Part shown: positions 47,650-64,000 of the stretch, piece by piece
Layout of the letters: every line of letters starts with the position of its first letter
Position numbering within the stretch: position 1 is the first letter of the stretch
Assembly: GCF_002367995.1 (NCBI RefSeq)
Contig: NZ_AP018207.1
Coordinates: forward strand, 8,161,366-8,225,365
Length of the DNA: 64,000 bases
Reading direction: 5' to 3'
Source of the DNA: Calothrix brevissima NIES-22
GTDB taxonomy: Bacteria; Cyanobacteriota; Cyanobacteriia; Cyanobacteriales; Nostocaceae
The notes under the pieces: generated by a model
Database searches by the model: none
What the model saw: only the letters and a program-made list of their open reading frames with translations
What the model was told of the DNA's origin: nothing
Position numbers and translations under genes: made by a program

Positions 47650-48864
47650 ATGTCTAAGTGGTCAGCAATTGTATATAGTCGGACTTATGAAGTAGATTTT
47701 CGCTTGATTGCGATTCCAGACTACTTCAATGATGAAGACAAAAAATGGGCTTCAAACTATATTCTTGGAACTACACGATCTACAGGAAGTCTAGATTTAC
47801 ACCCCCGATGGTCTTTATTTAAAAATGAACGCTACTGTGTAATAGGAGTAACTTGCAGGGCTAGCGATCTCGTTGAACCTACAGATTTAGCTACTGAAGA
47901 TCGAACTAAAGATTTTAAGAAAAGACCTCTTTTTACTTTTGTTGGCTACGTTACTCAAGTTGATCAAGAACAGGGTTTACCTTCAATTCCTCCCTATACA
48001 GGAAGAAATCTAGATTTTTTTAAACCTTTGTATCAAGACTATGTATGTAACCCAGATATCTGGTTTGTCAAATCTTATGAAAAAGCTAGTAAAGAAGCCA
48101 TCAAATCTAAGGCTCAAGAATTGATTTACCCCGAACTTCAACAACCTATAGATTTGAACTTAGAAAAATATCAATTACAAACAGATGGCACAATTTGTTA
48201 TCTTTGGACAGATTCAAAAACGGACAGAGAAAATCTTTGGTTTGCTGTCGCCCAACGTGCAATGACATATCCGAATAAATCCCTATCGCTCTGTTTAGGT
48301 TTATCAACACAAAGTGAGGCTTCTTATAGTCTTTTCTGGAATGCTACAGCTTTCGATGTTGTCAAACGAGTTTCAGTAGAATGGGTAAAACCAGGAAAAG
48401 GAAAGCAAGAAAAACCTCCAGTTAATGAGGAGATAAAACCACTGTCACAACCCTCACTAATCTCAGAAACAAGTAAAGAATATATACCCAAAAAGCAGAG
48501 TGATTCTAGAGAAGTATTAACTCCAGAGAGGCTAGTACAAGCAGCTATAACCGTAACAGCAGGGGGGACAGCAGGGGGGCTGGTTGGATGGAAACTTGGG
48601 GGAATTCCAGGCTCAATTTTAGGTGCAACTATCGGTGCAACTGTCGGTGGCGGCATTGGTTTGCTGGTGACAAGCCGATTAACTGATGAAAGCGATCAAC
48701 GATCTAGCTTGAATAGAGAGCAACAGAGCAATGATTATAGCTCTCAATCTCAAGAACAAAACCAAGATCCTGTGGAGTTAGATTATGGCTTTACAGCAAA
48801 AAATAAGGAGCAAAATTCATCTGATTCTGAACAAAAAGAGAATAGAAAGTCAAACTGGTTTTGA
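47650..48864 (+). CDS. Unknown protein with glycine-zipper membrane segment and WF tail
   Basis: 404 aa, family not recognised. The N-terminal ~210 residues (KWSAIVYSRTYEVDFR...) are clearly paralogous to the protein at 51014-52378. A linker is followed by a Gly-zipper hydrophobic stretch (about 297-345, repeated GG and GxxG) that could insert in a membrane, then an acidic/polar tail ending RKSNWF. A good RBS (AAGGAGA) precedes ATG at 47650. It is likely co-transcribed with the dynamin-like genes and the small GTPase at 48936. A GTPase-partner or adaptor role is inferred from context only. Confidence 0.75.
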   Translation: MSKWSAIVYSRTYEVDFRLIAIPDYFNDEDKKWASNYILGTTRSTGSLDLHPRWSLFKNERYCVIGVTCRASDLVEPTDLATEDRTKDFKKRPLFTFVGYVTQVDQEQGLPSIPPYTGRNLDFFKPLYQDYVCNPDIWFVKSYEKASKEAIKSKAQELIYPELQQPIDLNLEKYQLQTDGTICYLWTDSKTDRENLWFAVAQRAMTYPNKSLSLCLGLSTQSEASYSLFWNATAFDVVKRVSVEWVKPGKGKQEKPPVNEEIKPLSQPSLISETSKEYIPKKQSDSREVLTPERLVQAAITVTAGGTAGGLVGWKLGGIPGSILGATIGATVGGGIGLLVTSRLTDESDQRSSLNREQQSNDYSSQSQEQNQDPVELDYGFTAKNKEQNSSDSEQKENRKSNWF

Positions 48865-48935
48865 CGATTAATTAGGGTGATTTACAAGTAATTCAGTTTT
48901 ACTATTAGGGATTTATTTAAGGATAGTAGAGAACA

Positions 48936-49928
48936 ATGAAAATTGTCATGATTGGCAATACAGGTGTTGGCAAAACAACATATATGGCTTCCTTGTATGG
49001 AGCATTGCAGCGAGAGATTGAAGGCTTTTCTTTGAAAGCAGTACGTTCAGATGATCATTCTAGATTGTCTCAATTAGCTAAAACAATTCAAACGGGAGAA
49101 TATCCCTCTATGACTGATCAGAGAAGTGAATACGATTTTCACTTACGACATAAAGCCAAAGATGTTATTGAATTTTCTTGGGCAGACTATCGAGGAGGTG
49201 CTATTACTTCTAGCACAAAGGATGAACAAACTAATCTGTTAATTAGTGACTTAAAAAAGGCTGATGGAATTATGATGTTTTGTGATTGTGATGCCTTAGT
49301 TCGTAACGATCACCGGAGTAATCAGATTAGCAGAATGGCGACTTTGGTAAATCAAGCTTTGCAAAATGTAGATCATATTATCTGTTTAGCGATTATTTTT
49401 ACCAAAGTTGATATGGTAAAGGAGATTTCCGACAAGCATCTTGGCTGTTTTCAAGGCATGATCAGTGCCATCAATGCTAGTGAGTATGTAATAGGTTCTT
49501 TTGTCCCAATTGCTTGTGGAACCCAGTTTATCAATGTACCAATGCCATTATTATTCACCTTATATGGCTCTATCATTTTTAAAATGGCACTACTAGAAGT
49601 AGAAGTTAAGTATCATCACACAGTAGCGCAAGAATGGATGGCAAAAAGCAAAGGACTTAATGGTTTATGGAGAAAGGTGAAAGACACTTGGAATGGTGAA
49701 CCTACAGATGAAGAAATGGCAGTTTATCTATATCAACAAGCTGTTAAAAAATATGAAGAACATCAAACCCTTGTTGAATCTGTTCAAGCTCTTGTTGATT
49801 GTGTTCAAAAACTGCCTTTAATACAAAAGGAGAAGAAGCTTAAAGATTACGCTAATGAATGTGCCAACATTAGTTATAAAAACCCAATTTATGGGGATTT
49901 AAAACCCAACGTAAAGAAGTGGTTTTAA
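48936..49928 (+). CDS. Small P-loop GTPase (double-GTPase-like family) with WF tail
   Basis: 330 aa. G1 GNTGVGKT near the N-terminus, G3 replaced by the distinctive WADYRGGAI, G4 FTKVD, G5 near ACG. The C-terminal third is helical and ends NVKKWF. The DYRGG switch resembles the double-GTPase families described in bacterial conflict systems; I cannot confirm the exact family. It is paralogous to the next gene. Shared WF end with the 404-aa and 454-aa proteins suggests a common docking partner. Confidence 0.82.
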   Translation: MKIVMIGNTGVGKTTYMASLYGALQREIEGFSLKAVRSDDHSRLSQLAKTIQTGEYPSMTDQRSEYDFHLRHKAKDVIEFSWADYRGGAITSSTKDEQTNLLISDLKKADGIMMFCDCDALVRNDHRSNQISRMATLVNQALQNVDHIICLAIIFTKVDMVKEISDKHLGCFQGMISAINASEYVIGSFVPIACGTQFINVPMPLLFTLYGSIIFKMALLEVEVKYHHTVAQEWMAKSKGLNGLWRKVKDTWNGEPTDEEMAVYLYQQAVKKYEEHQTLVESVQALVDCVQKLPLIQKEKKLKDYANECANISYKNPIYGDLKPNVKKWF

Positions 49929-50010
49929 ATCTCTATTCCATTCTCAGCTTTTAAACGTTAAAAAAGCTTGATAAGTTTAAGCGATTGAATAAATTTTAAG
50001 GAGATGCTCT

Positions 50011-51021
50011 ATGTCTTACGGAAATATCAAAGTTACTATGCTCGGTTATAGTGGAACTGGTAAAACGTGCTATATGATTAGTATGTATGCCTTTATGAAA
50101 TTAGGACTCAATGGCTTTACCTTCAGCGAAAAAGATTTAGATAGGGATCTTGAGCTAACTGAAATGTGGGAAGCTTTAATTGATAACAGGAAGTGGCCAG
50201 ATCCAAATCCAAGCAATGTTAAAAACTATACTTTTGATTTTAACTATGCCTTTCAACCAATCATGAGTTTTGAATGGCTTGATTACCGAGGAGGAGCTTT
50301 GTCAGATACTTCTTCTAAAGAAGACGTTCAAGAACTCACTAAACAAGTAAAACAATCTAATTGTTTATTCCTCTGCATATCAGCAGAAGATTTACAGTTA
50401 ACAACAAAAATGAAGCGTGCAAGGGCAATCAAAGCAGATCGGATGAATGTTCTAATTAAGGAGATTGCTGAAGCTGTGAAACCTACAGCTAATCAACCTT
50501 TTCCCGTAGTATTTGTTATAACAAAATTTGATCTTTGTCCTAACCCTGATGACCAAGAAACGGTTATTAAGGCAATTCAAGAACTCTTTTCCACTTTTTG
50601 GGATTCTCCCGGTTGGTTTGTTAGCATTTGCCCGGTTAGTCTAGGAAAAGAATTGGGCGAAGATTTTGCTGATGGAGAGATCGATCCAGTTAATGTTCAT
50701 CTACCTGTTACTTTTGCTATTTACTGCAAATTATATAAACATAAAATTGAGCAAAAAATTAACCAGCAAAAATTGAAACAAGAGGAAAGTGAACTGAATA
50801 AACAGCTCATAAATCTCAAAAATCGTAACATCTTGGGAAGAATTTGGAAAGGTAGTGAAATAAATAGTACCGCGTATAATATAGAGAAGAGAAAAGAACA
50901 GATAGCGGAAGCAAGTAAAGGATTAGATGAAATCACTCAAAAATTAAACTTGCTTTCCCGCGAAGTGATGGAAAGCTGTTTTGTTTACCTGAATGGACAG
51001 GAAGGAGGATTTGATGTCTGA
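50011..51021 (+). CDS. Small P-loop GTPase, paralogue of the preceding gene
   Basis: 336 aa. G1 GYSGTGKT, G3 WLDYRGGAL, G4 ITKFD, G5 near PVSLG; the last ~90 residues form a charged coiled coil. Same layout as the 330-aa GTPase but without the WF end (it ends GGFDV). RBS AAGGAG precedes ATG at 50011. Its last 8 bases overlap the start of the next gene, implying coupled synthesis with that protein. Confidence 0.82.
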   Translation: MSYGNIKVTMLGYSGTGKTCYMISMYAFMKLGLNGFTFSEKDLDRDLELTEMWEALIDNRKWPDPNPSNVKNYTFDFNYAFQPIMSFEWLDYRGGALSDTSSKEDVQELTKQVKQSNCLFLCISAEDLQLTTKMKRARAIKADRMNVLIKEIAEAVKPTANQPFPVVFVITKFDLCPNPDDQETVIKAIQELFSTFWDSPGWFVSICPVSLGKELGEDFADGEIDPVNVHLPVTFAIYCKLYKHKIEQKINQQKLKQEESELNKQLINLKNRNILGRIWKGSEINSTAYNIEKRKEQIAEASKGLDEITQKLNLLSREVMESCFVYLNGQEGGFDV

Positions 51022-52378
51022 GAATAAGTGGGCTGCAATTGTTTATGGTCGGACATACGAAGTGGATTTTCGGTTCCTTACAGTCCCAGATGATTTTAAT
51101 GATGAGCGAGTCAACTGGGCGAGCAAGTACATTAACTCTACTACTCGTTATCCGCAAAATTTACCACAACACCCATGTTGGTCATTTTTTCAAGATGATA
51201 AACATTGTGTTGTTGGACTCACTTGTATGGTCAAAAACCTTCTTGAGAATTCCCCAGAAGAAAACTCAAAAAACTTGACTAAAGATATGTATGGAAGAAA
51301 CCTTTTTGTATTTCTTGGCTATGTAGCTAACATTCCCCATTCTCCGATTCCCTCTATGAAGCTTGAACTTTTTAAAGAGCTATACGAAAGCTATGTGCGA
51401 CCAAGATGGAATGATAAGTCTTACGAAGTTAGGAATCTAGAAAAGGAAGGAAAAAATTCTGCTCGTTATGACAAAAGTTTTGATTTGGATGTTTGTACTC
51501 AAGAACCAGAAAATATTCCTAGCTATTCTTTCAATAGGAACAATGAGAGAAGGTTTATCTGGTCAGTCAATGCTAATCAAAATTTATGGTATAAAGCAAG
51601 CCAAGAAAGTAAATCTTTATCAATATGTCTAGGTTTATTCAGAAAAAAATATTTTCTTGATGGAGAATTTCTTAACGGAACTGCTTTGGATATAACAGGG
51701 AATGATAAATATATTAATCCAGAAAAATTACATAAAGAAAAAGAAGTTCAGTGTACAGTGATTCAACAACCTGAAAAACGACAGGCTGATAGGGTTGATA
51801 AAGTAACTTTTTCAGATAAGTCTGGCACATTCAGTCAAGCAAAAGACAAAATGCGTCAAGTTGATAACCCTAATTTACATCCTTCTACTCCTTCTAGACG
51901 CAATCCAGTTATTAGTCAAGAAAATAATAAAAAATCAGTAAATACAAGAGATTTACAGACCGAAGACCCTGAATTTTACAGGATACAACTCAATTATGGA
52001 AAGGGCATAGTAAAAGAACTTTCGCAGTTTGTACAAGAGGGTAAAAAACGAGAAGAAGAGACGTTTAATAAAGTCAAAAAAGAGGCAGAAGAGACTATTC
52101 AAGGCTTGAAATCTCAAATCAGTCAATATTCAGGAAATGATTCTTTGTCTAAACACTTAAATGAAGAATTGACTAAAATAGTTAAGGATTTTGAAGAAGT
52201 AATCCGAGCTTTTGCTGACTTGTGTGGGTTGAGGAATCAATCTCAAGTTAGTTCTGATAAAAATCTTAATCAAGAGGAAAAACATCCGGCTAAAATTGAA
52301 AGTAAAAATATTGACTTTGATTTTGGTTTTAAAGAAAAGTCGGACAAAAATGAGTCAAAGCAGAAAAAATGGTTTTAG
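51014..52378 (+). CDS. Unknown protein, paralogue of the 404-aa protein, coiled coil and WF tail
   Basis: 454 aa from ATG at 51014, chosen over an in-frame ATG 21 bp upstream because AAGGAGG sits 6 bp before it and it overlaps the upstream TGA. Residues about 1-220 match the N-terminal domain of the 404-aa protein (KWAAIVYGRTYEVDFR...). Where that protein has a Gly zipper, this one has a coiled coil (about 330-400, GKKREEETFNKVKKEAEE). It ends with a DFDFGF segment and KQKKWF. Function unknown; last gene of the plus-strand operon, convergent with the spike operon. Confidence 0.75.
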   Translation: MSENKWAAIVYGRTYEVDFRFLTVPDDFNDERVNWASKYINSTTRYPQNLPQHPCWSFFQDDKHCVVGLTCMVKNLLENSPEENSKNLTKDMYGRNLFVFLGYVANIPHSPIPSMKLELFKELYESYVRPRWNDKSYEVRNLEKEGKNSARYDKSFDLDVCTQEPENIPSYSFNRNNERRFIWSVNANQNLWYKASQESKSLSICLGLFRKKYFLDGEFLNGTALDITGNDKYINPEKLHKEKEVQCTVIQQPEKRQADRVDKVTFSDKSGTFSQAKDKMRQVDNPNLHPSTPSRRNPVISQENNKKSVNTRDLQTEDPEFYRIQLNYGKGIVKELSQFVQEGKKREEETFNKVKKEAEETIQGLKSQISQYSGNDSLSKHLNEELTKIVKDFEEVIRAFADLCGLRNQSQVSSDKNLNQEEKHPAKIESKNIDFDFGFKEKSDKNESKQKKWF

Positions 52379-52493: not shown

Positions 52494-52886
52494 TCAAGGT
52501 ACTGATACAAGCGATTGTCCGGGATAAGTAATTTGGATAACGCCACCCCAAGTACAAAAACACTTACACGTGTCATTGAGAGCGGGAGGTGTGTGAATTG
52601 AGAAGGTTGGTGTGCCGGGTATCCAAGGAGCGGGAATAACCGGAATGCAAGGCATTGGGGTTGGTACTCCCCCAGCAGCAGCAGTTGCGGTAATAACTGT
52701 TGGGTTTGCTGGAGAAGTACACATACCAAAAGGGGGAATATTAACTATGGGTGCGAAATCTGCGATCGTTGCAGCTGGCTTTCCCTCTATTATGGTTGGC
52801 GTTCCTTTAGGAATAACGATTAGAGAGCTAGGTGTCATTCCAAAGGAGCATTTTAGCATTGCTCCCATTACTACTAACTTAGCCAT
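52494..52886 (-). CDS. PAAR-like spike-tip protein (DUF4280)
   Basis: 130 aa. The sequence follows the DUF4280 PAAR-like pattern along its whole length: GAMLKCSFGMTPSSL at the start, NIPPFGMC, PMPCIPVIPAPWIPG in the middle and the CKCFCTWGGVIQI / YPGQ end. Cys and Pro/Gly positions fit a small metal-bound cone. In contractile injection systems PAAR proteins cap the VgrG spike, and here the VgrG-like gene ends 3 bp upstream. Last gene of the minus-strand operon. Confidence 0.88.
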   Translation of the reverse strand: MAKLVVMGAMLKCSFGMTPSSLIVIPKGTPTIIEGKPAATIADFAPIVNIPPFGMCTSPANPTVITATAAAGGVPTPMPCIPVIPAPWIPGTPTFSIHTPPALNDTCKCFCTWGGVIQITYPGQSLVSVP

Positions 52887-52889
52887 TTT

Positions 52890-55691
52890 CTAGATTCCAT
52901 AGCTATTTTTAATGTTCTCGCTCATGCGTGTCCATTTAACCTCCTTAACGGATTGATCTTGCTTTTCTTCAAAATCTGCTTTTGAGTTATATTTATGAAG
53001 CTCAGGACTTAATAGAAAAGGTTTACCCGTATTGGCTTCCAGAGTATATATTGGGCAATCTTCACCGTTACCAGTCAATGATGTTTTATAATGATGTGGA
53101 AAAGGTATATCTTGCGAGTCTTTGTATTCAATTTTTATTTTATTGGTTTCTTGGATATCTTTTAAGTTTCCACTATTCTTTGCTGTTTTTTTGATCTGTT
53201 CCTGTCTCATGTTGAACAATTTGTTGGCAAACTTACCACAGTCGTTCGGATTATCATTATCTTTTTTTGTCGATGAGGTGAAAATTAACAGCTTAGGATC
53301 AATATCTATTTTTTGGAGTTCTGTTGGGATGGTTTCATCTGGAAAATTATTTTTGAATTGATTCTGCAAACTATATCTTTCTATTTCATTTGGGTTATCT
53401 TTTAACATTTTATCTCTCTGTTCATATATTTCTGCTTGTAGTTTTCCCGCCCACTGTCCCATTTCGTCTGTTCCTTTTTCTTCCATTTCTCGGTCGCGTT
53501 GAGCAAAATCCAAGGTATTATAAATTTGATTAGCCACTTTGGAAAAATTTTCTAAATCGTCCAAATTTTCGACACTTTGCGGTAATGTATGTATGAGCCT
53601 TGCATATTCTTCCTTCTGATCTTCCTTAACAAATTTTTGAATTGTTGAATCGTTCATTAGTTTGAATAAATGAGTACTATTCTTAGGAGAAGAGCTAGTA
53701 CTAGAGCTACTACTAACTTTAGAAAATCCAGAGCCTCCGCCCCGTAAACGTCCACGAATTTCGAGCGTGCTATCTTTCTGTATATTGGGGTAGTCAGCTA
53801 CTGTTGATTCCTCTTTAAGCGGTTTACCACCGTAGGTGAGATAGACATCAGCAGATTCGTAACCCAGAGCTTTTTTTAACTCGCTTATCTTTGTATTTGG
53901 GGTGATTTGCAATACTTTTGTTTTGCCGTCAAGACCTTTCATAAAAACCTGTTTGGGAGCCGCTTCATTATTTTCTTTAGTGACTGCTTTATCAGATCCA
54001 CTACCTACTGAGCTGCTGTTTGCTCCACTACTTGCTGAGTGATTACTTGCTCCACCGACTTCACCAGAAGCTAATCCAGCAACTACGGGACTACTAGGAA
54101 CATTAGGTGTCGGCACTTTGGGAGAAGGAAAAGAAACATTTACCAAAGAATTGATTTTGGCTTGTCCCGAATTCATCTCTATCTGTGTTGAGCCTAGCTC
54201 TATATTTTGTGATAAAAAATCAACTTTTTGCTGGGCTTGCCCAAAGATTTTCTTGCCATGATTCAATTTAATTTCTGAATTGTCAAGAATAATAGCTTCA
54301 GCACTTGCTAAACTTTGACTGTGCGATGAAACGGAAATTGCTAGCTTCTCCCCACAAAGCGTTATATCAGCTTTTTCCAGTTCTGGGCGATATTTTTGCA
54401 CCGAACCTAAGACTAAAGGAATGCCGCAGGGGTGAATATCTACAATCATCTCGTCGTCTTTTTCGTGTTTGATGTAGATTCCACTATATTTTTTATCGGA
54501 GTAAGTAGGAGATAAAATTTGAGTATATAAAACCGCATCATCTCCAGATTTTAAACTTTGTTTTTTTTCATCAATAATTCCCCAGTTGTTCAGATCGGGA
54601 GGCGCTATTTTTACTTTCGTTTCTTCATCTTTTTCTTTTTCCCATTTTTGAAACTTTCCAGGTAATCGTAAGGATACTACTTCATTATCTCCAATTTGAC
54701 GCTCTGGATAATCCATCTCTATTTTCATAGTGACAGATGGAGATTCTTTATCCTCAAATGCTGGCAACTTAAACTCATAACTAACCGTATGACAAAAAAT
54801 ATTTCTGTAACCTATATTTATCGTTCCAGGAGTAAATAATAATCGTGTGGGATTTTGAGCTTGAAAATTTTTCCCCTTCTGTGCATCTTCACCGTTAGAG
54901 CCATCACTTACCAGTTGTTTAATTAAAGCTATTTCTTGACCAGTATTGATATTAAGATCGCGAGATAAAGTACAAGACCGATCTAACCATCGGTTCCAAC
55001 TGTAACGATTAGGCATGAAGAGATGGGATGGATTCCAGGTTTGGTCGAGTTTCGGAATTGTCTGATCTTGCTTTTTTTCTTCAAAAAGAATCAATCGTAG
55101 CGGTTTATCAGCATCAAAAGCACACCACCCTTGTACTTCAGGTAAATGCCTGCTGGCAAAAGTAATGGTTCGATTTAAAAAATGAAAATTGTTAGAATCT
55201 CTATATCGCCAGATACAAGCATTATCTGGGAACAAGAACTTAATTTTATCAACAAAATCTGGATTCGGTTGCTCAAATTTTTCCCCTAGAACCTTATTTA
55301 ACCAAGGCCAACTATTTCCTCCGTTGCTTTTTTGATAAATAAAATAATCTTGTTTCTTATCCTTAAAGTTATTTTCATTAAACCAATCAATTACATCTTT
55401 TTTGACAACCAAGCCAACTAACTCAAAAGTTCTTGCTTCTGAACTGTTATATCCTACTAAGATAAACTTTATGGTTTGCCCTCCCCATGCAAAACTACCT
55501 TCAGCTTCTTGACAAATATCTTGAAAGAATTCCGTTTTAAACGTTTCTTCATTGGATAGCTTATTTTCTGCCCCGTCTAATTTATTAGACAATCTTAAAT
55601 GAATTAGAGGACCAGAGTTCAGTTTTAAAACTACAGTAATATTAGAGACAGAATATTCTTTCTCTTTAACTTTTACAATCGTTTTATTCAT
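52890..55691 (-). CDS. VgrG-like spike with ubiquitin-like domain and C-terminal cysteine-peptidase-like domain
   Basis: 933 aa, multi-domain. N-terminal ~370 residues are beta-rich, as in gp27-type regions. Residues about 365-434 resemble the gp5/VgrG OB fold (DDEMIVDIHPCGIPLVLGSV), and about 470-515 has short beta repeats (FLSQNIELGSTQIEM) as in spike needles. A Ser/Gly-rich linker leads to a ubiquitin-like domain at 581-652: VFMKGLDGKTKVL, KKALGYES, LTYGGKPLKEEST, then DYPNIQKDSTLEI and the end RLRGG, closely following eukaryotic ubiquitin. The remainder (660-933) has NDCGKFA (Cys818), PHHY (His866/867) and YTLE (Glu885), compatible with a papain-like/NlpC-type peptidase (inference). ATG overlaps the upstream stop (ATGA). 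Confidence 0.85.
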   Translation of the reverse strand: MNKTIVKVKEKEYSVSNITVVLKLNSGPLIHLRLSNKLDGAENKLSNEETFKTEFFQDICQEAEGSFAWGGQTIKFILVGYNSSEARTFELVGLVVKKDVIDWFNENNFKDKKQDYFIYQKSNGGNSWPWLNKVLGEKFEQPNPDFVDKIKFLFPDNACIWRYRDSNNFHFLNRTITFASRHLPEVQGWCAFDADKPLRLILFEEKKQDQTIPKLDQTWNPSHLFMPNRYSWNRWLDRSCTLSRDLNINTGQEIALIKQLVSDGSNGEDAQKGKNFQAQNPTRLLFTPGTINIGYRNIFCHTVSYEFKLPAFEDKESPSVTMKIEMDYPERQIGDNEVVSLRLPGKFQKWEKEKDEETKVKIAPPDLNNWGIIDEKKQSLKSGDDAVLYTQILSPTYSDKKYSGIYIKHEKDDEMIVDIHPCGIPLVLGSVQKYRPELEKADITLCGEKLAISVSSHSQSLASAEAIILDNSEIKLNHGKKIFGQAQQKVDFLSQNIELGSTQIEMNSGQAKINSLVNVSFPSPKVPTPNVPSSPVVAGLASGEVGGASNHSASSGANSSSVGSGSDKAVTKENNEAAPKQVFMKGLDGKTKVLQITPNTKISELKKALGYESADVYLTYGGKPLKEESTVADYPNIQKDSTLEIRGRLRGGGSGFSKVSSSSSTSSSPKNSTHLFKLMNDSTIQKFVKEDQKEEYARLIHTLPQSVENLDDLENFSKVANQIYNTLDFAQRDREMEEKGTDEMGQWAGKLQAEIYEQRDKMLKDNPNEIERYSLQNQFKNNFPDETIPTELQKIDIDPKLLIFTSSTKKDNDNPNDCGKFANKLFNMRQEQIKKTAKNSGNLKDIQETNKIKIEYKDSQDIPFPHHYKTSLTGNGEDCPIYTLEANTGKPFLLSPELHKYNSKADFEEKQDQSVKEVKWTRMSENIKNSYGI
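53736..53951 (-). other. Ubiquitin-like domain coding segment (residues 581-652)
   Basis: About 72 residues with ubiquitin's strand-helix-strand order and its conserved landmarks: GKT in the first hairpin, the KISELKKAL helix, YGGKPL, a DYPNIQKDSTL segment that differs from ubiquitin's DYNIQKESTL mainly by one inserted Pro, and terminal RLRGG. It is internal here, followed by GSGFSKV and a Ser-rich linker, so a free GG end would need cleavage. Confidence 0.85.
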
Positions 55692-56641
55692 TTCACAATC
55701 ATTTCAACTTCGTTATTACTACTATTAAGTCCCTCTATGTAAAAAACTTCCATTGGCAGTTCTGGATCAGATGGAACAACCGAATTGCTACTTGTGACGG
55801 AGACAGTATTTAGAGTTCTTGAAATAGGTGTAGGGTAGCGATGAACTATCTTGGAAAGATTCTTAATGATCTCATCAGATTCTTTATGTGATGTAACTAG
55901 TTGTAAAAAATCATCAATCTCACCACTTAAAGCAATAGATTTAAAAGCTCCTTCAGCCACCATTATAAAACCATTGAGAGCTCCCGGTAATTCTTGGTCG
56001 CCACTTTTTGGGTATGACCAGGGTTTATCATCCACTGAAATTTGGATCTTAGGTAACTTTTTATTGTGTTGTGCAAGAACGGTTCCTATTAGTGAATTAG
56101 CAATAAATGGTAGTACTAAAGCAAATCTTTCAGTTCCATTTGAAGTTGATTGTGTAGAAAGCGAGTAGATGTAGCGATCTTTTACTTGATCAAACTCTAA
56201 TATGTGCTTGAGAAAATCCTTACCATCATCATTTTTACTAGGATTTTTGAATTTTGGAGACCATCCTTTGGTTTCTATCCACTCCCTTTTATCTTTTTCC
56301 TCATCTTCCTCCTCAAAGTTAAAAAGATGTAGTTGAGAAACTTCGTTACTAAATTGAGAAAATCTACTATTTACTAATTTGGCATTATTGATAGTGATTT
56401 TGTGTTCGGCAACGTTAGAAATTTCCAATTTTCTCTTTTTTTCCTTGTTATTTGGATCGTCCAGACTTTTAATGAAAGGTTTCCCTGATTTTTGGGAAAT
56501 ATAGGCTGCAAAAATACCACTTGAAATAATAATATTTTGGCTAGCTTTTTCTACCGTAAAGTTATAGCAAAACAAAAAACTTTCTAAATTCTTTGTTATA
56601 TCTACATTTCCAGGACTTGTTTGAACTAATTTATAAGGCAT
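55688..56641 (-). CDS. Unknown protein of the spike operon
   Basis: 317 aa, not recognised. It is mixed alpha/beta with a charged middle (EEEDEEKDKREW) and no signal peptide or membrane segment. Its stop overlaps the ATG of the VgrG-like gene, so the two products are probably made in fixed proportion. A loader, adaptor or gp27-like role would fit that position, but nothing in the sequence proves it. The upstream spacer is AT-rich with a weak RBS. Confidence 0.72.
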   Translation of the reverse strand: MPYKLVQTSPGNVDITKNLESFLFCYNFTVEKASQNIIISSGIFAAYISQKSGKPFIKSLDDPNNKEKKRKLEISNVAEHKITINNAKLVNSRFSQFSNEVSQLHLFNFEEEDEEKDKREWIETKGWSPKFKNPSKNDDGKDFLKHILEFDQVKDRYIYSLSTQSTSNGTERFALVLPFIANSLIGTVLAQHNKKLPKIQISVDDKPWSYPKSGDQELPGALNGFIMVAEGAFKSIALSGEIDDFLQLVTSHKESDEIIKNLSKIVHRYPTPISRTLNTVSVTSSNSVVPSDPELPMEVFYIEGLNSSNNEVEMIVK

Positions 56642-56698: not shown

Positions 56699-59600
56699 TT
56701 ATTTTTTTACTTCATCTAATTTGCCTGCAAAGTTATTTTTCCAAGGCAATGTAAATGTGTACTCTGACGATCCCTTGTCTAATAATGCGCCATATATTGA
56801 TGTCATAGAATAATCTTCTGTGGCTAACCCATTTAAAGAAGTTAAACGTGTTTTTCCTTCTGGTACTACTTGAATACGAATATCTTGTAGTTGTTCTAAC
56901 GTTGAAAATGCTACTTTTTCAACTTTTAATGATTCTTGTCTCAAAAGCTCATCCTCAAGTTTTTGACCAAATTGTTCTTTGATATTAATAGTATTATCTT
57001 GCCGTTTAGCCAATACTATTAAATTCAACCACTTAGTAAATATAAGCGTATCTACGAGCTTGCAATTTCGGCTTAACCAAAATTGACGTAATAAATCTAC
57101 GACTGTTTGATTCTTACTTAGATTTGTATCAAATGAATCTCGCATTTTAATACTTACCGACCGTTTGAAGTCTATTATAGAACCCATCGGCATAGATGAA
57201 TTTAGTAACGCTGCACTGAGCAATAAATAACTATTTTGTTGTTTTTCCCAATCAACAGTTATGTTTAACTTGTCCGTTTCTGGGGATTTATTGTTACCAA
57301 AAACGAATTGAGGTAACTCAAATTTTGCTGTCGGACAAATTAATGGCAAAGGAACTTGATCGAGTGATAAATCCTTCGACGAGCTTACAAATATGGGAAT
57401 TTGAAAGTTCTCAGCATCCTTAGTATCATCTATAAAAGTAGCTAAATGACCTGCCATTGTTGTCAGTTTACTGTCGTCAAATTGAGACTGAGAAGTTAGA
57501 TAGACTACTGAAGGAGAATCAGTATAAAAGGTATCATAACCTTTATAATCTATATCATTATATTCACTCAGACTTGTGTTAAGTACTACAATCTCCAAGT
57601 CTGTGTGTTGCATCATTTCAAAAAAGTTTTTTATTTCTGCCAATTCTTGAAGATAGTTTTTTACCTTATTGAGCTTTTTACATAACTCGTATTGGTATTG
57701 AAGAATGGTTGAGATTTCGTCTCTTTTTTCTGCAGGATAATACTTACTCAGATTAATTTTCTGTAGTAATCTTAGTAATTTTGGATCTTTACTAAGCTCT
57801 TCATCTAAAATTTTACTGTCATCTAGTTCTCCCAGATGTTCGACAATATCAACCATTAAGCCCAAAATATTACTTAGGTCTTCGCGACCTAGTTGTGTTG
57901 TCCCTTTTGGTGCGGATTGGATATACTCACACAGCAGTAGAGAGCGAAAAGCACGATTAAAGTCTGGTTCTTTAGAATCTTCATCACGATACTTACTCAG
58001 AATTGTATCCATTGATTTTGACAACTGTTGGTAATTATTTTGAGCGTCTTCAGCAATTCTTTCTGCTTGTTTAATTTCATCTGGTTTGGGGAAATCCATT
58101 ATTTCAGGAATATCTAACTCCTGTAGTTTATAGGTTTCACCGTCAATATTTATTTGTGCTTCTGCGCTATTAAATTGGTCGGCCACTTGGATTTCATCGG
58201 CTGACAACTTAATGTTATCTTCTTCGATTGTGTAACTACCAATTTTCCTTCCTTCACCATTAGTCACTTCACCAGGCTCTTTAGAGACTGGTATAGATTG
58301 GAACTTTTTGGGTTTTGGTGCGGTAACAGAAAGAGTGAAATTTGTTTGAGTAGCAGTTTGAGCTTCTTGCAGAATCTTCTTTTTGCGGATTGTTTTAATA
58401 TCTTGGTCAATGTTTTCAAAATCGGGCATGGACAAATCTGTCATCACATAAACAGGCGCTCCTGCTGTTGCTTCTTGAGAAGTAACTTCTTGGATGCTCC
58501 GCAGATCATAGAGGTCTTGTGCTAATTGTTCTTCTTTTTTGATTTGGTCTTGATTTTTTAAATATTCTTCGGCAAAACGATTTTTACTCTTTTGGGCAAA
58601 TTCGCTAATAAAGGCTTCTTTAACCTTAATTTTAAAATTTTCGTCTCCTTCTTTTTCCTTAGCTCTGTTAATAACAACATCGACAAATCCCCTCATATCA
58701 AAGGTATTAAATTTTTCTACTTCTTTATCTTTTGCAGCTTCTTTATTTAATCTCTCGGCAAATTCTTCGATTTCCGCCTCAGTTTGAGTATTTAAGATAG
58801 TTCTGTAATATTTAACAAACAACTGGTTAAACTCATCATTTTCTCTGAGGATTTGTCCAGCTTTTCCTCCAGCTATCTGGTTTAGTTTCTTGAATAGATT
58901 TTTTGCTCGCAACCGCAAAGCTTTGCGCGTCACAGCACGATCTGGCAATAATGCGTCAAAAATATTGTCTTCAGCTTTTTCTGCAAAAATCAAATAATTA
59001 TCATCCCCTTCTACTTTATTGGCAAGTGTGGGTTCGACTTCTGCTTTCTGAATTAATTCAGAGTTCCGAAGGTATGCTTCTCTGCTTTCACTGCGAATCC
59101 TTTGTTCTCCTTGACCTTCTACACCAACACGAAACATTTCTCCAGCAGCCTGTGTGCGTTGTTCAGCTGAATTGCCCCATTTTTTATATTTGCTTGACAA
59201 CCAGCAGAATATACTCGAATGAATGGCTTGAGTTCTTACAAGGCGATGAATTTCACTGGAGGCCACCATAAATTGTTGGTAGTACACAAAAAAGTTTTTC
59301 TCACCAACTTCAGGATGTGAGAATCCATAATCAGGATCGCTTGCATAATTTTTTAGCCAGCTAAATTGACTTGATTTAGCAATTATTTTCCAAGTTCGGT
59401 CTTCTATTCCATACAACATTACCTGTTTGCATTTAATTAGGGCTTCTACTAACTGATCTACTTGCTCTTCTGTATAGATTCTTTTATCCGAGTTATTTTT
59501 AAAGCTGTTTAAAGACAACCGAAAAGCAGTTTCTATTTCTGGCTCGTCTTGCTCGTGAGCGGTCATGTACTGTACTATTCTCGAACAAAATGAGTTATCA

Positions 59601-60121
59601 GAATTAATGATTTGAATCCATTGTTTATCTTCATCAATTTTGTGTTCCAGCTCTTTATTAGCTTCCTCAATTAAATACTCTTTAGCGATCTTCAGTAAGC
59701 TTTTAGTGAAATGACTGTCTGTAAAATAGGCAACAGTGTCTAGATTTTTAATCAGTTTATTAACTACTTCTTTTCCTTGTTTTTGTATATCGTCTGCAAT
59801 ATCTCCCGAATAGATACTGCCATCGAGCAAGAGACTGTCAAACAAAATTGGTTGTGAATTACCTTTATCCTTTGCATTCAAAGGGGTATCTAATTCATAT
59901 TTATTAAATATTGAGTCGCCAATGGTTAAAGTACCCTTACTAGAGGAGCGTAATTCTGGCTTTAGTTTAGCAAACAGATCGGCTACCCTTATCTTCCCAT
60001 CTTTCTCGCCAGTATTTTTAAATACATAACGAATTTGCTCGTCTTTACTGCGGAAACGTCCGATTATTGCTAAAGTCTTATTGGATTTTTTTAATAAATC
60101 TAACTGTGTTTGATTTAGCAT
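56699..60121 (-). CDS. Large unknown cytoplasmic protein, first gene of the spike operon
   Basis: 1140 aa, no family recognised. It has no signal peptide and no obvious membrane segment. A helical first part (to about 600) contains charged coiled-coil stretches, followed by a Pro/Gln-rich transition (about 600-680) and a mixed alpha/beta C-terminal third with hydrophobic strands (LEIVVLNTSLSEY, IPIFVSSSKDLSL). RBS AAGGTG precedes ATG at 60121. Being the first gene before the 317-aa protein, VgrG-like spike and PAAR-like tip, it is a candidate scaffold or baseplate substitute (inference). Confidence 0.75.
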   Translation of the reverse strand: MLNQTQLDLLKKSNKTLAIIGRFRSKDEQIRYVFKNTGEKDGKIRVADLFAKLKPELRSSSKGTLTIGDSIFNKYELDTPLNAKDKGNSQPILFDSLLLDGSIYSGDIADDIQKQGKEVVNKLIKNLDTVAYFTDSHFTKSLLKIAKEYLIEEANKELEHKIDEDKQWIQIINSDNSFCSRIVQYMTAHEQDEPEIETAFRLSLNSFKNNSDKRIYTEEQVDQLVEALIKCKQVMLYGIEDRTWKIIAKSSQFSWLKNYASDPDYGFSHPEVGEKNFFVYYQQFMVASSEIHRLVRTQAIHSSIFCWLSSKYKKWGNSAEQRTQAAGEMFRVGVEGQGEQRIRSESREAYLRNSELIQKAEVEPTLANKVEGDDNYLIFAEKAEDNIFDALLPDRAVTRKALRLRAKNLFKKLNQIAGGKAGQILRENDEFNQLFVKYYRTILNTQTEAEIEEFAERLNKEAAKDKEVEKFNTFDMRGFVDVVINRAKEKEGDENFKIKVKEAFISEFAQKSKNRFAEEYLKNQDQIKKEEQLAQDLYDLRSIQEVTSQEATAGAPVYVMTDLSMPDFENIDQDIKTIRKKKILQEAQTATQTNFTLSVTAPKPKKFQSIPVSKEPGEVTNGEGRKIGSYTIEEDNIKLSADEIQVADQFNSAEAQINIDGETYKLQELDIPEIMDFPKPDEIKQAERIAEDAQNNYQQLSKSMDTILSKYRDEDSKEPDFNRAFRSLLLCEYIQSAPKGTTQLGREDLSNILGLMVDIVEHLGELDDSKILDEELSKDPKLLRLLQKINLSKYYPAEKRDEISTILQYQYELCKKLNKVKNYLQELAEIKNFFEMMQHTDLEIVVLNTSLSEYNDIDYKGYDTFYTDSPSVVYLTSQSQFDDSKLTTMAGHLATFIDDTKDAENFQIPIFVSSSKDLSLDQVPLPLICPTAKFELPQFVFGNNKSPETDKLNITVDWEKQQNSYLLLSAALLNSSMPMGSIIDFKRSVSIKMRDSFDTNLSKNQTVVDLLRQFWLSRNCKLVDTLIFTKWLNLIVLAKRQDNTINIKEQFGQKLEDELLRQESLKVEKVAFSTLEQLQDIRIQVVPEGKTRLTSLNGLATEDYSMTSIYGALLDKGSSEYTFTLPWKNNFAGKLDEVKK

Positions 60122-61998: not shown

Positions 61999-64000
61999 TT
62001 ACGCGAACGGTGAGTAATTAGCCTTTACTAAATACTTCATAACAAGACGTTCTAAAGAACGAATTGATTGTTTTGGCTTCAATGTTTCGGTTACTATTTC
62101 GTCTTTGATTGATTCAGGGCAATCTTTCCAGGCGTATCTTTCTAAGATCAAATCAAGGATTTGCCTTAAATATTTTGGTTCTTTAATTGGAAAGAAAGGA
62201 ATCACAAAATCAATGCGATCAAGAAAAGCACGATCTAAAGGTGTTTTTCTTTGTACGTATTCAAGACGATTGTAACGATTTTTTAGATCGATATATCTCT
62301 CAATTAATTCTCCGCCGTTATTCTGGAACAAATCTTTTTGTAACTGGCACTCATCGAACTGATTTTTTGCCGCATTTATTTCTGCAAGCAAAAAATTTTG
62401 CATGGATATTTCAGTTTCGTCGATCGCACCTTGAATAATTAATTTTCGCAAAGATTCGTCACTGAATCGCTCTGCCAAAATTTCTCTGGATATATTCTCG
62501 GCGGAGGAGGTCTTTTCATAAATTTCTTCTACTTGTTCTTGTCCTTGGTTGGTAGTCATAATGAAAATGACTTGCGAAAAATAAACAATCTTACCTTCTG
62601 CATCTTTTCCCTCTCCTTCAAGAATACTAAGCAAGATGTCTTGTATAGAAGCATCAGCTCGATCAATCTCGTCTAGCAAAATAACGCAAGAGGGACGAGA
62701 TCTAACCAAATCGTAAATAGTTTTAGTAGAACGATAACCAACATAACCCGGATCTGCCCCCATAAAACGAGTTCGGGCGCTTTCAGAAGAATATTCTGAC
62801 ATATTGAAGATAAAAAAGGCTTCATCTCCCAAACCTAGATGAATTGCTAATTGCCTACCTAAATGAGTTTTACCAACTCCAGGGGGTCCGACAAAAAGAA
62901 ATCTGCCACGGGGAGCTTTGCGAGGGGGACGTTTAGCCATTACTTGTAGGACTTTACAGACTTTCTCTACGGCTGCATCTTGGGCGATAACTTGCTTTTT
63001 GAGATTCAATTGTACTTTTTGATAAAATTCGTCTGGATCTTTCCCTAATATTTCAGTACTAATCGATTGTTCTTCAGCAACATGCTCCCACAAATCTGCA
63101 AAGAGAATTTTGTCTGAAGGTGGGTGTTTGAGATATATGCGGTTGATTGCTCTATTTAAAGTACTTTCAGCTAGATGCAGTGCAATTTCAGGGAAGAAAC
63201 GTCCAGGATATCTCTCTGAAGCGATGTTAATTAACAAAGAACAAAATTCCTCCTTGGAGGGGTCGAAATCGAGTCTCATTCCGGAGCGGGGAATCAATTG
63301 CTCCATTTTGTGAGAGACAATTTCTAAACTTACGGTAGGAGATAAAGGTGATAAAGTATAGCTTTTGATAGGCTCAAGTAAGCTTGAAGTTAAAGCTATC
63401 TCCGTGCGACATACCAATACAAAAGTACGTCCGCTAGTAGAAAAAATACCACCAAAGAGGCTAGTAAATATTTCGTGAACTGAAATGGTTGGATTTAGAA
63501 GTGCCTCAAAACTGTCAAATATAGGAATTACTTGAGGATTGGCTTGGAGATATTGATATAGGCGCGTCAGACGAGTTCGATTGTCTTCTTCTGAATAAAT
63601 AAAATCTTTTTGCTCAAATAAAATAAAACGAACGTTACTTAATAACTGATCGCCGGATCTTTGCCACCGCCCAAGAGAAACTTTAATTAATTCTCGTAAA
63701 AAAACAGATTTACCAACTCCTCGATATCCTTCTAATAAATAGTGCCGGCGTTGGCGAATTGCCAGAGATAGAAAACCACTATGTTTATCAATATCTGCCT
63801 GACGACCTAAAAATGGTAAATCGTTTTGTTCTCCCATCCATTCATAATCAATTAGCGTACCAAACCCCAAATCGGCAACTTTTAGATCTGAAAAATCAGG
63901 CATTAAAAAAAGAGTATCGACTCCTCGCGCTTTACAAATTTTGCGGCATAAATTTAAAAATTTATCGTCAAAATCTCCTTCTAAAAGCCAGTATATTACG
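61999..64000 (-). CDS. Double AAA+ ClpB/ClpV-like ATPase, 5' end beyond window
   Basis: At least 666 codons; the frame is still open at base 64000 through VIYWLLEGDF upstream of the ATG at 63903, so that ATG is probably internal. Numbered from it: AAA-1 has Walker A GYRGVGKS (59-66) and a weak Walker B (VIPIFDSFE, 125-133). AAA-2 is a typical Clp D2: GPPGVGKT (339-346), MSEY, GADPGYVGY pore-type loop, VILLDE (407-412), FIMTTN sensor. An insertion with helical charged sequence lies about 470-560. No Clp N-domain or long M-domain is seen in the visible part. ClpV-type enzymes recycle sheaths of type VI systems; next to a VgrG/PAAR operon a remodelling role is plausible (inference). Confidence 0.88.
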   Translation of the reverse strand, partial: VIYWLLEGDFDDKFLNLCRKICKARGVDTLFLMPDFSDLKVADLGFGTLIDYEWMGEQNDLPFLGRQADIDKHSGFLSLAIRQRRHYLLEGYRGVGKSVFLRELIKVSLGRWQRSGDQLLSNVRFILFEQKDFIYSEEDNRTRLTRLYQYLQANPQVIPIFDSFEALLNPTISVHEIFTSLFGGIFSTSGRTFVLVCRTEIALTSSLLEPIKSYTLSPLSPTVSLEIVSHKMEQLIPRSGMRLDFDPSKEEFCSLLINIASERYPGRFFPEIALHLAESTLNRAINRIYLKHPPSDKILFADLWEHVAEEQSISTEILGKDPDEFYQKVQLNLKKQVIAQDAAVEKVCKVLQVMAKRPPRKAPRGRFLFVGPPGVGKTHLGRQLAIHLGLGDEAFFIFNMSEYSSESARTRFMGADPGYVGYRSTKTIYDLVRSRPSCVILLDEIDRADASIQDILLSILEGEGKDAEGKIVYFSQVIFIMTTNQGQEQVEEIYEKTSSAENISREILAERFSDESLRKLIIQGAIDETEISMQNFLLAEINAAKNQFDECQLQKDLFQNNGGELIERYIDLKNRYNRLEYVQRKTPLDRAFLDRIDFVIPFFPIKEPKYLRQILDLILERYAWKDCPESIKDEIVTETLKPKQSIRSLERLVMKYLVKANYSPFA

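Follow-up and report, generated by a model that had tools for sequence, protein, structure and literature searches.

A candidate tail-spike protein of Calothrix brevissima NIES-22 carrying a ubiquitin-like domain and a putative cysteine-enzyme end

Gene organization and domain layout of a 933-residue protein

The DNA analyzed here is a 64,000-nucleotide stretch of the Calothrix brevissima NIES-22 genome (contig NZ_AP018207.1, positions 8,161,366 to 8,225,365; genome 9.26 Mb in 9 contigs), referred to below as the window. Our subject is a gene at 52890..55691 for a 933-residue protein in which a spike-like half, a ubiquitin-like domain (Ubl) and a putative cysteine enzyme follow one another. 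The original prediction, made from the letters alone, had placed a 933-residue protein at these positions; inspection reveals a complete open reading frame (ORF) with exactly these ends, but on the minus strand, and the plus strand across the interval is stop-rich. Every motif it had named was located (GKT at residue 589, YGGKPL at 620, DYPNIQ at 633, RLRGG at 648, DCGK at 817, PHHY at 865 and YTLE at 882), and the order it had proposed, spike-like part, Ubl and third domain, holds. The gene overlaps the upstream gene for a 317-residue protein by 4 bp and is followed after a 3-bp gap by the gene for a 130-residue DUF4280 protein. The features of the two genes are as follows.

52890..55691, minus strand: candidate spike-effector gene, 933 residues, complete ORF
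54102..55691, minus strand: spike-like constant part, residues 1-530 (73% identity to spikes of Gomphosphaeria; precedes DUF4280; OB-like match at 410-431)
53952..54101, minus strand: Ser/Ala/Gly-rich linker, residues 531-580, read from the sequence; spike similarity stops here
53736..53951, minus strand: ubiquitin-like domain with terminal RLRGG, residues 581-652 (PF00240, structure-database matches, predicted fold)
53736..53750, minus strand: RLRGG, residues 648-652, then GSG
53676..53735, minus strand: Ser-rich linker, residues 653-672, read from the sequence
52893..53675, minus strand: putative cysteine-enzyme toxin domain, residues 673-933, assigned from its variable-slot position and a motif
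53238..53240, minus strand: Cys818, which begins a predicted helix of low confidence
53091..53096, minus strand: His866-His867
53031..53039, minus strand: Glu885-Ala-Asn887
52494..52886, minus strand: DUF4280, PAAR-like tip protein with six Cys (PF14107, E 1.9e-35)

PADLOC gave no match for the 933-residue protein. The fraction of G and C is 0.35 in the spike part, 0.44 in the Ubl, 0.333 in the end domain, 0.468 in the DUF4280 gene and 0.393 in the window, a composition that allows no conclusion on foreign origin.

A domain close to ubiquitin with a well-preserved tail

The ubiquitin identity of the central domain is solid and beyond chance. PF00240 matches residues 582-649 of the 933-residue protein at E 1.1e-8 and 35.1 bits, over the curated cut-off of 25.4, and the Ubl as an isolated 78-residue piece scores 40.7 bits. 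A sequence search of the Protein Data Bank (PDB) with the Ubl returned 260 distinct matches at E<=0.001, and the 60 of these 260 that were shown are ubiquitin, its variants or its fusions. In a single-sequence AlphaFold2 model, residues 581-640 adopt a ubiquitin fold with a block-mean predicted local distance difference test (pLDDT) score of 72-84, and the block means over the tail stretch are 61 and then 33. Of the Foldseek matches to this model, the 50 shown all bear titles of ubiquitin or its complexes (best E 9.2e-7, 38% identity). The suggestion that this domain stands near ubiquitin itself is borne out by the PDB and Foldseek matches, and the model together with Foldseek confirms the ubiquitin fold.

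Alignment with ubiquitin places 31 identical residues among 71 aligned. The Ubl retains K6, K11, K27, K48, K63, L8, R72 and the LRGG tail of ubiquitin, with Gly at the position of L71. Residues L8, I44 and V70 constitute the main binding face of ubiquitin. L8 is retained in the Ubl; since I44 is replaced by Thr619 and V70 by Arg646, two of the three positions are lost and the main binding patch is altered. As read from the alignment, the tail is better preserved than the binding face. These two substitutions argue against plain mimicry within the earlier idea of an effector that mimics or attacks host ubiquitin, and the effector-like character of the C-terminal half, described below, agrees with that idea.

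PF00240 is rare in the class Cyanobacteriia, occurring in 2 of 145 and 3 of 388 genomes, with that of C. brevissima counted in each. The other two genomes of the class that bear it have architectures unlike the 933-residue protein, and one is probably contamination. In the first, a cyanobacterial genome, a ubiquitin domain (60 bits) opens a long ORF of 1281 residues (locus L007, 1495-3201). In the second, an assembly of picocyanobacterial size (locus L076), lies an ORF with ubiquitin and, by eye, a USP-like stretch, which is probably eukaryotic contamination.

Exchange of the C-terminus in Gomphosphaeria aponina

Homologues were sought in genome samples that overlap one another, partly with peptide-pattern scans that reach close relatives only. 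The only relative found comes from a metagenome-assembled genome (MAG) of Gomphosphaeria aponina (Chroococcales), where it sits on a contig of 25.6 kb. Scanning genome contigs with six peptide patterns for the whole protein gave one locus, and among 291 genomes of the class the whole protein occurs in one, its own. The spike profile likewise returned only the C. brevissima genome among 388 genomes of the class and again among 145 of the family, with at least seven other genomes of the genus included; the 1140-residue operon protein was found in 1 of 194 genomes, again its own. None was found when viral contigs were searched with the spike profile or the Ubl-toxin half, phages with the toxin part, or plasmids with the whole protein.

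The two genomes share an eight-gene operon, which in C. brevissima encodes proteins of 426, 1169 and 583 residues, an AAA+ ATPase, proteins of 1140 and 317 residues, the spike and DUF4280. The Gomphosphaeria operon encodes proteins of 420, 1176, 598, 769, 1146 and 316 residues, then two spikes, then DUF4280. Five pairs of operon proteins aligned in full are 59-67% identical. Both Gomphosphaeria spikes share 73% identity with the C. brevissima spike over residues 1-530; beyond the spike part, the C-termini of the C. brevissima protein and of both Gomphosphaeria copies are unrelated.

The Gomphosphaeria spike genes stand in tandem (locus L002, 7001-13627), with differing toxin-like ends, candidate immunity genes and one DUF4280 gene after them. 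The first C-terminus matches no family and looks nuclease-like by eye; a gene for a pentapeptide-repeat protein comes after it. In the second, HAE and CxxC can be made out by eye, PF14424 is reached only at E 0.15, and an Imm6 gene (E 2.5e-21) comes next. Imm6 is paired with YwqJ deaminases according to PMC3482391. The pentapeptide-repeat and Imm6 genes are likely immunity genes, separated from their spikes by gaps of 15-18 bp versus the 3 bp between spike and DUF4280 in the window. No immunity gene lies between the window spike and DUF4280; unlinked immunity genes elsewhere in the genome were not searched for.

Because the same spike bears different ends, each followed by a likely immunity gene, the spike C-terminus looks like a polymorphic-toxin slot. 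An effector role for the C-terminal half had been one reading in the original prediction. This half does appear effector-like, since the only relative exchanges exactly this part for domains followed by likely immunity genes.

Evidence for a spike in residues 1-530

Gene order, together with weak evidence from profiles, leads us to infer that residues 1-530 are likely a VgrG-type spike and that the protein is delivered. The gene-order argument draws on DUF4280, which has been described as PAAR-like (PMC5349215), so that a PAAR-type tip gene directly adjoins the spike gene, 3 bp downstream. DUF4280 is present in 34 of 242 genomes of the class at E<=0.001 and exceeds the cut-off in 31. Of 36 places, 20 were fetched (set L047-L066) and the gene order was listed for 14 of these. 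In 12 of these 14 loci a gene for 608-669 residues directly precedes DUF4280 on the same strand; the exceptions are L065, with an odd 715-residue ORF before DUF4280, and L066, with no preceding gene. The 12 preceding proteins are 62-99% identical to the first of them, and both of the two that were scanned contain the VgrG OB domain PF04717 (E 7.2e-28 and 3.9e-27), with the VgrG hub domain PF05954 over cut-off in one of the two. The window DUF4280 shares 58-72% identity with that of all 20 loci fetched, and blastp against these loci gave nothing below E 0.01 for the remaining seven operon proteins of the window. Like the window, these cyanobacterial VgrG and DUF4280 loci, of the extracellular contractile injection system type, place DUF4280 right after the spike gene. 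Unlike the window protein, their spikes stop after the beta-helix and carry no effector in the 12 that were aligned.

Profile comparisons lend the OB region modest support. Using hhalign, the best match to VgrG-type spikes falls at residues 410-431, the end of the OB domain, and is not significant. When residues 331-460, chosen after this placement, were compared with an OB profile, 4 of 400 column permutations reached the real score (about the 1% level); when the whole spike was compared with that profile, 3 of 200 did. The original prediction of a gp5/VgrG-like OB region agrees with these permutations and with the position of DUF4280. It disagrees with the family, hidden Markov model (HMM) and whole-profile tests: the spike half has no Pfam, NCBIfam or PDB sequence match, neither PF04717 nor PF05954 was matched in Pfam up to E 1 anywhere in the 933-residue protein, and an OB HMM search did not report the spike. 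A plain profile comparison between this spike and the VgrG type placed its best match at 76-133, which is not significant, and 19 of 200 column permutations reached the real score for whole against whole profiles. A structure model from three sequences failed, with a mean pLDDT of 28.6 and no usable fold. By eye only, a beta-helix-like stretch follows the OB-like region.

A putative cysteine enzyme at the C-terminus

The end domain is a putative cysteine enzyme. Cys818, His866/867 and Glu885-x-Asn887 are present, in keeping with the Cys-His-Glu peptidase previously proposed; no family exceeds its cut-off for this domain in Pfam or NCBIfam, a PDB sequence search with the toxin part gave no match, and the pLDDT of the single-sequence AlphaFold2 model is below 50 from residue 786 on. 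The order Cys-His-Glu/Asn suits papain-like folds, CHAP in particular. A motif with these spacings, written after the sequence had been seen, occurs in 29 of 20000 shuffles in its loose form and 1 of 20000 in its strict form, and in our own set of nine CHAP domains it is found in 5 of 9 and 3 of 9, respectively. The H-x17-E-A-N-x-G stretch of the end domain resembles the extracted CHAP sequences. An HMM built from the nine CHAP domains, drawn from 8 of 59 genomes, gave the end part a score that 292 of 5000 shuffles reached, which is not significant.

Two further candidates for this domain were set aside. A DUF5906 match at 820-877 (E 6.4e-4, below cut-off) covers a partial profile, stands at E 0.0058 when the toxin part is searched by itself, and is read as chance; weak NCBIfam matches (E 0.016 and 0.021) lie far under their cut-offs.

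A proposed ubiquitin-fused effector and competing explanations

Taken with the gene order, the exchange of ends in the relative makes it quite probable that the 933-residue protein is a spike with a swappable effector. That the Ubl moreover serves the cargo we hold to be slightly better than an even bet. The protein would be a VgrG-like spike, with an exchangeable C-terminal effector, in an injection apparatus derived from a phage tail; residues 1-530 would take the DUF4280 protein as tip and carry their own C-terminus into a target cell. The slot would here hold the Ubl between two flexible linkers and, at the terminus, the putative cysteine-enzyme toxin (C818, H866/867, E885/N887). The Ubl, with its intact RLRGG-G junction, would serve cargo handling within a eukaryotic cell: once injected, the protein would be cleaved behind RLRGG, either by the victim's deubiquitinases or by its own toxin domain, a cleavage that would release the toxin from the spike. 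Its near-eukaryotic character, intact tail, flexible linkers and slot without an immunity gene most likely mean that the Ubl suits the toxin to eukaryotic cells, and together they suggest that the protein is a weapon against such cells. Enzyme activity, the cut site and the eukaryotic target are points that we only infer. Given a spike with a swappable effector, the chances for and against a eukaryotic target are about equal; given that target, a cut at RLRGG is again a matter of even chances. The most specific version, that an undescribed injection apparatus encoded by the eight-gene operon in two cyanobacterial genomes fires exchangeable toxin spikes, here a ubiquitin-fused toxin into eukaryotic grazers that is freed by victim deubiquitinases reading LRGG, is a speculative one. 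If it were true, an injected effector would use the ubiquitin-fusion junction, a handle cleavable by every eukaryotic cell, to free its toxin from the spike, and toxin-tipped spikes would extend to an operon whose other parts fit no machine in the libraries used.

Several results weigh against a spike whose Ubl serves its cargo. No sheath, tube or baseplate family was found among the operon proteins in Pfam, NCBIfam or PHROG, and no homologue of the Ubl-toxin half appeared in the collections searched. To these are added the family, HMM, whole-profile and modeling results for residues 1-530, the altered binding patch of the Ubl, and the lack of a family match and of a significant CHAP score for the end domain.

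An alternative in which the cut is made by the protein itself is unlikely, though it survives best among the competing explanations. Here the C-terminal cysteine domain would cut after RLRGG, in cis or from one chain of a trimeric spike to another, and either shed the toxin or leave a GG-ended spike. A cut by the peptidase at this site, with a GG end open to conjugation, had been one reading in the original prediction and is hypothetical. Next to the Ubl, Cys, His and Glu/Asn follow one another as in papain-like enzymes, which fits such self-processing, as do the low-confidence helix begun by Cys818 and the rarity of the loose motif in shuffles. Against this stand an end domain with no family over cut-off, no homologues and no predicted fold, and the Gomphosphaeria spikes, which are without a Ubl yet bear toxin-like ends, so that a cut at RLRGG is not required by the system.

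Nearly on a par, and likewise improbable, is an antibacterial toxin: a CHAP-like hydrolase of peptidoglycan or protein aimed at bacterial rivals, with the Ubl as a folded spacer and the producer protected by an immunity gene at another locus or by compartmentation. In its favor, each sister C-terminus is paired with a likely immunity protein, as is the case for antibacterial toxins, and the H-x17-E-A-N-x-G stretch is CHAP-like in appearance; the CHAP HMM result and the immunity-free gap between spike and DUF4280 oppose this explanation, and a mere spacer need not stay near ubiquitin or retain LRGG.

Comparison with known systems

Polyubiquitin and fusions of ubiquitin to ribosomal proteins are cut by deubiquitinases. 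Like these fusions, the 933-residue protein has a ubiquitin domain ending in RLRGG followed by more protein; unlike them, its ubiquitin lies in mid-chain of a bacterial protein and has an altered hydrophobic patch. Effector-carrying VgrG proteins are known as evolved VgrGs. Spikes of the window and its relative resemble VgrG proteins of the type VI secretion system (T6SS) with C-terminal effectors in that a spike-like protein stands beside a PAAR-type tip, a toxin is fused behind it and toxins are exchanged between copies. In contrast to T6SS VgrG, the window spike half has no Pfam VgrG domain, a ubiquitin domain is present and the slot lacks an immunity gene; in contrast to T6SS, the operon has no recognizable sheath, tube or membrane genes. 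According to PMC3482391, VgrG of T6SS can carry toxin fusions and VgrG of Photorhabdus virulence cassette (PVC)-type loci never did. With the polymorphic toxin systems of that source are shared the constant N-terminus, the variable toxin end and, in the relative, an adjacent immunity gene (Imm6 by Pfam). The window copy departs from them in that no immunity gene adjoins it and a Ubl precedes its end domain.

Among the open-licence papers listed in the literature searches, none was found to describe a VgrG-type spike bearing a ubiquitin domain. One of those listed, PMC10781749, contains the words 'ubiquitin-like domain' a single time; in the available portion of PMC8213781 the word ubiquitin occurs once, in a reference title. 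The earlier statement that no described system has this architecture thus narrows: since effector-carrying spikes are already known (PMC3482391), what is unfamiliar is only the combination with the Ubl and the operon around it.

The operon, its neighbors and other tail systems of the genome

The operon continues upstream of the spike gene with the following features.

55688..56641, minus strand: 317-residue operon protein, 67% identity in Gomphosphaeria
56699..60121, minus strand: 1140-residue operon protein, 67% identity in Gomphosphaeria
61999..63903, minus strand: AAA+ ATPase, ClpA/ClpV/ClpB-like by partial match; the frame continues past the window end

As far as it lies within the window, the AAA+ protein shares 71.6% identity with the N-terminal part of the 769-residue Gomphosphaeria protein. 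No Pfam or NCBIfam family matches the 317-, 426-, 583-, 1140- and 1169-residue proteins above its curated cut-off; their best PHROG match is at E 0.0087, with function unknown, and the 426-, 1169- and 583-residue proteins have no PDB sequence match. By eye, GxxxxGKS and NKSD can be read in the 1169-residue protein, as in a GTPase-like P-loop. A zinc-ribbon gene (PF13240; 61090-61437, minus strand) lies between the AAA+ and 1140-residue genes, with none between their Gomphosphaeria counterparts.

Convergent with the spike operon, genes for DO-GTPases (PF19975, E 3.3e-15; PF19993, E 5e-7) occupy 47650-52378 on the plus strand. The two are interleaved with genes for a 404- and a 461-residue protein that look alike, and dynamin-like genes (PF21808, E 7.7e-150; PF00350) precede them. 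DO-GTPase conflict systems are described in PMC7159879, whose text mentions neither VgrG nor PAAR. Such systems and the window have DO-GTPase genes as direct neighbors in common; unlike them, the window has its DO-GTPases on the other strand and no GAP1 family match, and none was seen on the contig of the relative. An explanation with no injection system at all, in which an intracellular AAA+/GTPase conflict system uses the 933-residue protein as sensor or effector and DUF4280 is a fold relic, would draw on these neighbors, on the P-loop of the 1169-residue protein and on an operon with no recognizable sheath or tube, but it is very improbable, as no DO-GTPase was noticed among the listed ORFs of the Gomphosphaeria contig (not scanned for it), DUF4280 elsewhere comes after a true spike gene, and toxin-immunity cassettes on a spike suit export.

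Outside the operon, the C. brevissima genome encodes a PF04984 sheath with gp19 tubes (locus L015), a phage-like tail (locus L016) and, with a PAAR-looking gene after it, a canonical spike. The operon of the 933-residue protein may form an apparatus of its own or serve to arm another. In the Gomphosphaeria genome (a 3.7-Mb MAG, completeness not given), neither the PF04984 sheath nor the canonical spike was seen. Within the phage-like tail cluster of C. brevissima (L016, 13191-16809), a 961-residue protein with M23 and DPBB domains adjoins an OB spike.

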